From NCBI GenBank assembly GCA_004332195.1, contig SJBG01000002.1:1-64000 (forward strand): a stretch of DNA of 64,000 bases. The letters are read 5' to 3'. The translations under genes and the position numbers were made by a program. The notes under the pieces were generated by a model that worked only from the letters and a program-made list of their open reading frames with translations, did no database searches and was not told the origin of the DNA. This document shows, piece after piece, positions 18,821-46,336 of the stretch. The first letter of the stretch is position 1, and the number at the start of each line of letters is the position of its first letter. This DNA comes from Desulfobulbaceae bacterium (lineage in GTDB: Bacteria > Desulfobacterota > Desulfobulbia > Desulfobulbales > Desulfurivibrionaceae).

Positions 18821-18968
18821 AATCAGCCATCTCCGCCCGGCCGGTCGACATCAAAACTCCGCCCCGCGCTTTTCAGAAATTGACGTATTGGTCACGATCG
18901 AATAAACTCCGCGCCAACAATCATAATCCCCCGGCGCCTCCGCCCGGACATCACGAGGAGTAAGCAAA

Positions 18969-19370
18969 ATGCCAAGACCGGTATTCATCCTGACAACCCT
19001 GCTCATCCTGGCGGCGACGGCCAGCGCCGTCATGGCCCAGGGCCCCAACAACATCAGCTCCGAGGAGCTGCGGCAACGACTGACTCAGCCCCAACTGAGC
19101 GTGGTGATAGATACCAGAACCGAACGGGAATACCGCCGGGGCCATATCCCCGGGGCCAGCAATATTCCCCCGACCAGCTTCATCAACATCGCCGAGCTGC
19201 TGCCGAAGAACAAAAATACTCCACTGGTTTTTTACTGCCGAAATCTATCCTGAGGTCTGACCCCCGAGGCTGCGGTCGCAGCCCAACGAGCCGGTCATCA
19301 AAACGTCTTCGTTCTTCGTGGAGGCTTCTCCGAATGGCAATCCCGCCGTTTCCCCGTCAGCGTCAAGTAG
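18969..19370 (+). CDS. Secreted rhodanese-like selenoprotein (UGA-decoded Sec95)
   Basis: The frame runs to a UGA at 19251-19253 and continues without interruption to TAG at 19368-19370, giving 133 aa. A signal peptide (LTTLLILAATASAVMAQ) precedes a single rhodanese domain: VVIDTRTEREYRRGHIPGAS, then LVFYC90RNLS-U95-GLTPEAA, then AGHQNVFVLRGGFSEW. In relatives with a YC-x4-C pattern the second Cys aligns with U95. The C-terminal half after the UGA is canonical rhodanese, so simple termination would leave a domain without half its fold. A SECIS-like hairpin starts 14 bases after the UGA. The extended end also meets the convergent gene's stop neatly. A periplasmic sulfur- or selenium-transfer or redox role is inferred. 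A nonsense mutation is the alternative. Confidence 0.8.
19268..19283 (+). promoter_or_regulatory. SECIS-like hairpin of the rhodanese gene
   Basis: GGCTGC (19268-19273) and GCAGCC (19278-19283) form a perfect 6-bp stem around the loop GGTC. The loop starts 21 bases after the UGA, matching bacterial SECIS geometry (a short stem with an exposed G at the loop start, bound by SelB). The same GGTC loop occurs after the fdhA UGA. Confidence 0.7.
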
Positions 19371-43642: not shown

Positions 43643-46336
43643 ATGAACGAAAAAATGATAGCCGCACAAATAAACGGCCTGGAAGTTTACTGCCGACAAG
43701 GGACGACCGTGCTTGCGATGGCCCGGGCGGCCGGGTGCTTTATTCCCACCTTGTGCGATGACCCGCGCCTTGAGGCTTACGGCGGCTGTCGCCTCTGCGT
43801 GGTGGAAATCAAGGGCCTGGAGTATCCTCAGACCGCCTGTACCACCCCAGTGGCTGCGGGCATGGAAATTGTAACCGAAAGCGCCAAGCTGACCAGAATC
43901 AGGCGGAACATCCTCGCGCTGCTGCTGGCCAATCACCCCAACGACTGCATGCGCTGCGAAGCCACCGGGGCCTGCACTCTCCAGGATCTGGCTTATCGCT
44001 ATAATGTCGACGGCAGTCGCTTTAACGGCGACCAAACCCGTTTGCCGCGCCGCGACGATAACGACTTTATTACCTTTGAGCCGGACAAGTGCATTCTCTG
44101 TGGCCGCTGCGTTCGCATCTGCCACGAGGTGATGATGGATGGGACCATTGACCTGATCGGCAAGGGCTTTAATACCAGGGTGGATACCGCCTGGTCCAAA
44201 CCCCGGAGCAAGGAAAATTGCGAGTTTTGTGGCCAGTGCGTCTCCACCTGCCCCACCGGGGCCCTTACCGACAAGATGAGCCGCGGCCTGGGCCGACCCT
44301 ATGAGACCACCAAGGTACGCACCACCTGCTGTTATTGCGGCACCGGCTGCGGCCTTGATCTCAAGGTCAAAGACGGCAAGGTGATCGGGGTGGCCTCAGC
44401 CCTGGACGCCCCCTCCAATCAGGGCAATCTTTGTATCAAGGGCCGGTATGGTTATCAATTCATCCACAGCCCCGAACGGATTAAAACCCCGCTGATCAAG
44501 AGAGATGGCAAGTTTGAAGCGGCCTCCTGGGATGAGGCCCTTGATCTGGTGGCAGGTAAGTTTATCGAAATCAGAAAAAAACACGGCCCGGATGCCTTGG
44601 GCGGGGTGGCCTCGGCTCGCTGCACCAGCGAGGATTGCTATGTCATGCTTAAGTGGGTGCGAGCCGGGATCGGCACCAACAACATCGACAACTGTGCCCG
44701 GGTCTGACACGCCCCTACGGTGGCCGGTCTGGCCGCAAACTTTGGATCCGGAACCGCAACCAACTCCATGGACCAGATAGCCGAGGCGGATACCATTTTC
44801 CTCTTCGGCTCCAACCCCACGGAATGTCATCCCATCGTCGGCCTCCACCTGAAAAAAGGGTTGCGCCGCGGGGCCAAACTAATAGTGGCCGACCCTCGCC
44901 GCATCGACCTGGTGGATCGGGCCGATATCTGGCTGGGGCTTAAGCCGGGCAGCAATCTCGCCCTGATCAACGGGATGCTTAATGTCATCCTGACCAATGG
45001 CTGGGAAAACAAGGAATATATCGCCACCCGGACCGAAGGTTTTGTGGAGGTTAAGGCTAATGCCTTGCTCTATCCTCCGGAAAGGGTGGAAAAACTCACC
45101 GGGGTGGCCAAGGAAACAATTATTGCCGCCGCCGAACTTTATGCCAAGTCGGATAAATCGATGATTGTTTATGGCTTAGGGGTTACCGAGCATATTACCG
45201 GCACCGAAAACGCCATGGCGATGGGAACCCTGGCCCTGGTCTGCGGCCATCTGGGCCGCCGCGGGGCCGGGGTAATGTCCCTGCGGGGCCAAAACAACGT
45301 GCAGGGCGCCACCGACATGGCCGCGGTTCCCCACATGTTGCCGGGTTATCAATTGGTTTCCGAGCCGGAAGTGCGAGCCAAGTTTGAGAAAAAATGGCAG
45401 GCGCCGATCAGCCCCCGACCCGGGCTGGAGTCGCTGGAAATGTACGACGCGGCCCGAGCGGGCAAGTTCAAGGGCATGTTCCTGATGGGCGTTGATCCGG
45501 CCCAGACCGACCCCGATCTCCACGCGGTTCGCAAGTCCTTAAACGCCCTTGATTTTCTGGTGGTGCTGGATATGTTTCACACCGAAACCACAGCTTTTGC
45601 CGACGTAATCCTGCCGGGCGCCAGTTTTGCCGAAAAAGACGGGACCTTTACCAATCTTGAGCGAAGAATCCAACGGGTCAACAAGGCTATTGAGCCCATT
45701 GCCGGCAAGGCTGAGTGGCAGATAATCTGCGAAATCGCCACCCGGATGGGCTACCCGATGCACTACAATCATCCCGCTGAAATTATGAACGAGATTGCGT
45801 CACTGGCCCCCAACTGGGCGGGGATTGACTATCAACGGCTGGGCACCCAAGGCCTGCAGTGGCCCTGTCCGAGCAAAGATCATCCCGGCACCGCCACTCG
45901 TTATGAGGATGATTTTCCCCGTTACAACAAGTTAGGCCGGATGATTGCCCTGGATCATGTCGGCTCGGGAGAAATCCCGGATCACCAGTACCCGTTGATT
46001 CTCACCACTGGACGACGACGGGAGCATCATAACAACGCCTCGATGACCATGCGAACCGAGGGGATAGCCAAGCTGGTGCCCGAGGAGCTGCTGGAAATAA
46101 GTTCAGGGGACGCGACCAGGCTGGGGATCGACGACGGCGATTATGTCCGGGTCGTTTCCCGTCGCGGCCAGATCAAGGTCAAGTCCTGGGTGACCACCAG
46201 GGCCCAGGACGGCATCGTTTTTCTCGCCTTTCATCACCGAGAGGCCCTGACCAACGACCTGACTTCCGGGTTTAGGGATCCGATCACCAGCACCCCTGAG
46301 TATAAGTCCTGCGCGGTCAGGGTGGAAAAATCGTAA
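43643..46336 (+). CDS. fdhA: Selenocysteine formate dehydrogenase catalytic subunit (NAD-linked type)
   Basis: The frame continues across an in-frame UGA (44705-44707, Sec355) that falls in the context NCARV-U-HAPTVAGLA, the canonical FdhA active site (Sec-His). About 897 aa. The N terminus has a NuoG-like [2Fe-2S] domain (YGGCRLCVVEIKGLEYPQTA), a His/Cys [4Fe-4S] region (NHPNDCMRCEATGACTLQDL), two ferredoxin clusters (CILCGRCVRICHEV, CEFCGQCVSTCPTGA), then the fourth cluster (CCYCGTGCGLDLKV) and the molybdo- or tungstopterin domains (RGQNNVQGATDMAAVP, ILTTGRRREHHNNASMTMRT). It oxidises formate or reduces CO2. With NuoE/F-like partners it predicts an NAD(P)- and possibly ferredoxin-linked enzyme. 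ATG 43643 is the start. Confidence 0.95.
44720..44736 (+). promoter_or_regulatory. SECIS-like hairpin of fdhA
   Basis: GTGGCC (44720-44725) pairs with GGCCGC (44731-44736), including one G-U pair, around the loop GGTCT. The loop begins 19 bases after the UGA. Position and G-rich loop fit bacterial SECIS elements. Confidence 0.75.

Follow-up and report, generated by a model that had tools for sequence, protein, structure and literature searches.

A gene at positions 18969–19370 (+ strand) of a 64,000-nucleotide stretch of a Desulfobulbaceae genome (contig SJBG01000002.1; hereafter the window) appears to encode a genuine selenoprotein, a rhodanese in which the in-frame UGA at 19251–19253 is read as selenocysteine (Sec). 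On comparative sequence evidence, we put the probability of this reading at about 0.92. The hallmarks of a bacterial selenoprotein occur together here: the coding sequence is conserved on both sides of the UGA, homologues with cysteine (Cys) exist, a hairpin with a G in its apical loop lies just 3' of the UGA, and the genome carries the Sec genes. In the proposed course of synthesis, the ribosome would reach the UGA at 19251, the GGUC-loop hairpin would recruit SelB with Sec-tRNA, and translation would proceed to the TAG at 19368, yielding an exported rhodanese of 133 amino acids. The window genome (G000) comprises 1.66 Mb in 21 contigs and very probably belongs to the genus Desulfurivibrio.

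The frame starts with MPRPVFILTTLLILAATASAVMAQ, has the UGA as residue 95 and, as the initial annotation described, continues without another stop to TAG 19368–19370, giving 133 residues. A standard ORF call stops at 19253, after residue 94, so that Sec and the C-terminal part are missing from annotation and the gene is indeed hidden. A Shine-Dalgarno-like GAGGAG (18955–18960, +) lies 8 nt 5' of the ATG, and a consensus scan alone gives a weak sigma-70-like promoter match, TTGACG-17-TAAACT, at 18880–18908 (+; 1 found vs. 0.3 expected). Residues 1–23 (18969–19037), consisting of MPRP, a hydrophobic stretch and AVMA, were read by eye as a putative signal peptide. Relatives in another lineage have lipobox-like N termini, likewise read from the sequences. 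Both features agree with the earlier description of the protein as secreted, and we infer that it is exported and periplasmic. At the base composition of the window, the chance of an open frame of 38 codons after the UGA is ~0.23, which is unremarkable alone, while in folding energy the hairpin stands out only moderately (z −2.05; 7 of 200 shuffles did as well). Since neither is individually remarkable, the case for a selenoprotein rests on comparison.

The read-through product contains a single complete rhodanese domain across the UGA, as proposed from the initial reading of the frame. The Pfam match to PF00581 covers residues 31–125 (19059–19343) with 78.9 bits against a gathering cut-off of 22.2 and an E-value of 4.3e-22. 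AlphaFold2, supplied with an alignment of the window protein and the proteins of the related loci, predicts a rhodanese fold for the read-through with a mean pLDDT of 91.5; the blocks that cover residues 101–130, which follow Sec95, have values of 96–98. Foldseek matches of this model are rhodanese structures (6mxv, 3tp9, YgaP, and GlpE). In the rhodanese fold, a six-residue active-site loop cradles the persulfide. The loop of the window protein, CRNLSU, begins with the presumed catalytic Cys90 (codon TGC, 19236–19238), which is invariant across 36 aligned relatives, and column 95 of the alignment always holds Cys or Sec. This invariance of both columns places Sec95 as the sixth and last residue of the persulfide-cradling loop. 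Judged by its predicted domain and active-site loop, the protein is a member of the rhodanese family.

Five genomes of the same order (G005, G003, G002, G091, and G094) possess the gene with 48–57% identity, each with one internal TGA in the same alignment column. Close relatives do not terminate at the UGA, the codons downstream of it being conserved. Widening the search to the whole class and phylum, and to two further classes, revealed more members with TGA. In total, 35 single-domain loci among the related genomes searched, that of the window included, have TGA at the Sec codon within a C-x4-U loop, followed by an AAVAA-like helix start, and one has TGC. The latter (L123) and its closest relative L124, which has TGA, come from the same genus and are nearly identical in sequence. 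Thus a Cys orthologue at position 95 does exist, and the C-x4-C relatives mentioned in the initial annotation were found. Tandem rhodaneses from other genomes usually carry Cys at this position (YCNGVKC), and some have Sec (YCNGFKU). A search for related loci in a genome contig collection and in plasmids returned distant relatives only.

A tree was built from 90 rhodanese domains (50 with Sec and 40 with Cys); it is based on few columns and has many open forks. The single-domain group comes out as one clade (SH-aLRT 99), with 34 Sec and 1 Cys among its 35 tree rows. The Sec/Cys state switches at least six times on the best tree and at least twice on its starred branches. The codons after the UGA show pN/pS of 0.19–0.71 in 15 pairs, indicating purifying selection.

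The hairpin GGCTGC-GGTC-GCAGCC (19268–19283, +) has a perfect 6-bp stem, in accordance with the initial annotation, and lies 14 nt from the UGA to the stem and 20 nt to the loop. Its codons specify Ala-Ala-Val-Ala or close variants in the 36 loci. The loop is GGTC (GGUC in RNA) in 32 of these, and 34 have GCG as the second hairpin codon. The third bases of codons one and four face each other in the stem; they form C-G in 24 loci, U-A in 10, and U-G in two, and are unpaired in none, so that the stem is preserved by changes at synonymous sites. At codon five, the third position falls outside the stem and is free to vary, with all four bases occurring. Every stem cell is paired, which none of 500 shuffles equalled (29 distinct rows), a statistic inflated by kinship among the sequences. 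Covariation on supported branches comprises four independent pairs, two of them changing together, which is too few for significance. The Rfam scan matched no bacterial SECIS family to the hairpin; we regard it as bSECIS-like.

The search for the Sec machinery called for by the initial annotation was successful: the window genome encodes selA (618 bits), selB (332 bits), selD (377 bits, with an in-frame TGA of its own), and tRNA-Sec (selC) with the anticodon tca. The selA gene lies on a different contig from the selenorhodanese. It is present in most Sec-bearing genomes tested, and the Cys-bearing G658 retains it; an intact selA was not found in four Sec-bearing genomes (G005, G091, G404, and G663), which are incomplete or yielded fragments only. 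In two genomes of the genus, selA lies ~7 kb from the selenorhodanese (G002 C1 236179–245316 and G003 C28 79202–88480). The window holds another in-frame TGA at 44705 (+), with 356 open codons before and 542 after it (...ARVUHAPTVAGL...), a context that fits a Sec-type formate dehydrogenase; this is consistent with the remark that fdhA of this organism also uses UGA.

If the UGA were an ordinary stop, the gene would encode a truncated protein of 94 residues, or it would be a pseudogene in decay, disabled by a nonsense mutation. The standard ORF call does terminate at 19253, and three orthologues (L006, L008, and L009) use TGA as the true final stop too, besides the Sec codon. However, more than 30 members of the clade, from several classes, retain the UGA, the codons 3' of it are under purifying selection, and a truncated protein would lack the C-terminal portion of the fold, which makes this reading very improbable. 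A misread or misassembled TGC or TGT behind the TGA is a next to negligible possibility: relatives with Cys at position 95 do exist, but more than 30 independently assembled genomes, one of them complete (3,097,763 bp), share the TGA, and the conserved hairpin accompanies it. On these grounds, the widely conserved UGA and the selection on the codons that follow it, truncation, pseudogene, and sequencing error were rejected.

As to the function of the selenoprotein, a role in the handling of sulfane sulfur or selenide, as suggested initially, is conceivable. For a mechanism of sulfane-sulfur/thiol redox chemistry using the Cys90–Sec95 pair, we consider the chances somewhat below even. Outside the cytoplasm, Cys90 would accept sulfane sulfur from polysulfide, thiosulfate, or a persulfide, the selenol of Sec95 would resolve the persulfide with formation of a Cys90–Sec95 S-Se bond and release of sulfide, and external thiols or sulfide would then bring about regeneration; the substrate and the catalytic cycle are conjectural. 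A DsbD/CcdA-type transmembrane protein was not found in the window genome, which leaves it without the usual reductant of the periplasm. Sulfide or other small thiols, plentiful around a sulfidogen, may serve as the reductant.

Three lineages show three different neighbourhoods of the gene, and the repetition of each within its lineage is explained by descent. In Desulfurivibrio, the selenorhodanese is divergent from a gene for an MtfA-like metallopeptidase (PF06167; 17897–18820, − strand, in the window), an arrangement that two further genomes from this genus share. The 3' neighbour in the window is a 534-aa ORF on the opposite strand (−). In a family belonging to another class (G429, G749, and G750), the selenorhodanese is preceded on its own strand by a Fur-family regulator, and in G429 and G749 rubrerythrin separates the two. 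In the class of G404, thrC is located upstream and fur, znuA, znuC, and znuB-like genes downstream in most loci, all on the same strand. Five loci of one class (L160–L163 and L167) display the conserved run thrC–selenorhodanese–(fur)–znuA–znuC–znuB. Two of the Fur-family regulators were tested and match PerR and Fur models below the cut-offs. The two separate associations with Fur hint at a connection to oxidant or metal stress.

The main role of the selenoprotein might instead lie in periplasmic redox chemistry or in peroxide/metal stress, not in sulfur transfer, with its Cys–Sec pair cycling between S-Se and thiol/selenol. The regulator and rubrerythrin neighbourhoods of the one class and the position between thrC and (fur-)znuA-znuC-znuB in the other favour this possibility, and according to a review (PMC9312934), most selenoproteins of this sort can be expected to have redox functions. 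The odds are nevertheless against it, given that the genus of the window shows neither neighbourhood, only the divergent MtfA-like gene, and that the regulators' sub-threshold scores do not establish PerR. It is quite unlikely that the protein handles selenium itself, binding selenide or perselenide for selenium delivery. Se-substituted rhodanese was proposed as a selenium donor in work cited in PMC5877670, and selA is close by in G002 and G003, but an exported protein is poorly placed to feed cytoplasmic SelD, and selA is on a separate contig in the window genome. Taking the single-domain clade as a whole, one could speculate that it is a subfamily of periplasmic, stand-alone rhodaneses that is dominated by Sec and has a selenenyl-sulfide redox centre, serving extracytoplasmic sulfane-sulfur metabolism or the response to oxidant or metal stress, partly Fur-controlled, in several lineages of the phylum; this wider proposal is rather doubtful. 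We know of no selenoprotein for which a selenenyl-sulfide function of that kind, with Sec beside the catalytic Cys, has been shown.

The window protein joins an already known kind of proteins: as the initial annotation noted, rhodanese-like selenoproteins were predicted before, and five forms, UxxS, UxxG, CxU, UxxG, and UxxxxU, most of them predicted, are listed (PMC13188914). Form 1 (PF00581, UxxS, WP_010941598.1; PMC13188914) is, like the window protein, a rhodanese domain with one Sec. When compared by motif alone, UxxS fits the U-x-P-S of several clade members, whereas the window protein has U-G-L-T; it may represent form 1 or a further form. The model NF041203 (rhodanese_LYCAU, form 3, CxU) also describes a short rhodanese-related (seleno)protein, and the window protein aligns with it over nearly the full length, scoring, however, 62.2 bits against a membership cut-off of 115; going by the motif, the Sec of that family is at C+2, as opposed to C+5 in the window protein. 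The top-scoring NCBIfam model is NF045694 (TsoB, form 5, rhodanese/DsbD fusion-like, UxxxxU) with 63 bits, far below the membership cut-off of 805, and the match is confined to the rhodanese part. The second Sec of its U-x4-U is spaced like Sec95, but TsoB has two Sec residues and a DsbD-like part, whereas the window protein has one domain and Cys at the first loop position. The Sec-dominated subfamily is perhaps without an NCBIfam model of its own. Tandem rhodaneses of the same order (YCNG-x-K-C-GKS) have the same loop as the window protein with Cys at the Sec position, and a few members elsewhere in the phylum (L103 and L105) have Sec there; unlike the window's single-domain group, they possess two rhodanese domains and form a separate clade.

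Desulfurivibrio grows by disproportionating sulfur and oxidizing sulfide (PMC12142623, PMC5016858). Rhodaneses have been assigned the passage of sulfur to polysulfide reductase both in D. dismutans, where they are secreted (PMC12142623), and in D. alkaliphilus (PMC5016858). Selenium is not mentioned in the main text of the D. dismutans paper (PMC12142623) or of the 2017 D. alkaliphilus paper. If a selenium-dependent secreted rhodanese indeed operates in these bacteria, it would tie sulfur metabolism to the supply of selenium in a way that has been overlooked. L124 (Sec) and L123 (Cys) form a natural pair that offers a ready comparison of the contribution of selenium.

Further rhodanese genes with in-frame TGA came to light in the same searches. 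The window's own genome encodes a second candidate rhodanese selenoprotein on contig C3 (L066:6951–8189), which has 412 amino acids and three rhodanese domains; the loop of the first is YCGGLHC, and that of the second is YCGGLGU with the in-frame TGA. One family of the order has adjoining pairs of rhodanese genes (L013, L019, L021, L029, and L032), each gene of a pair with a C-x4-U loop (YCMGxxUPYS and CLSxRUxY). Longer rhodanese proteins at L025, L084, and L114 have the loop CGGxTUGMS and occur alongside Cys relatives with CGGxTCPLS.
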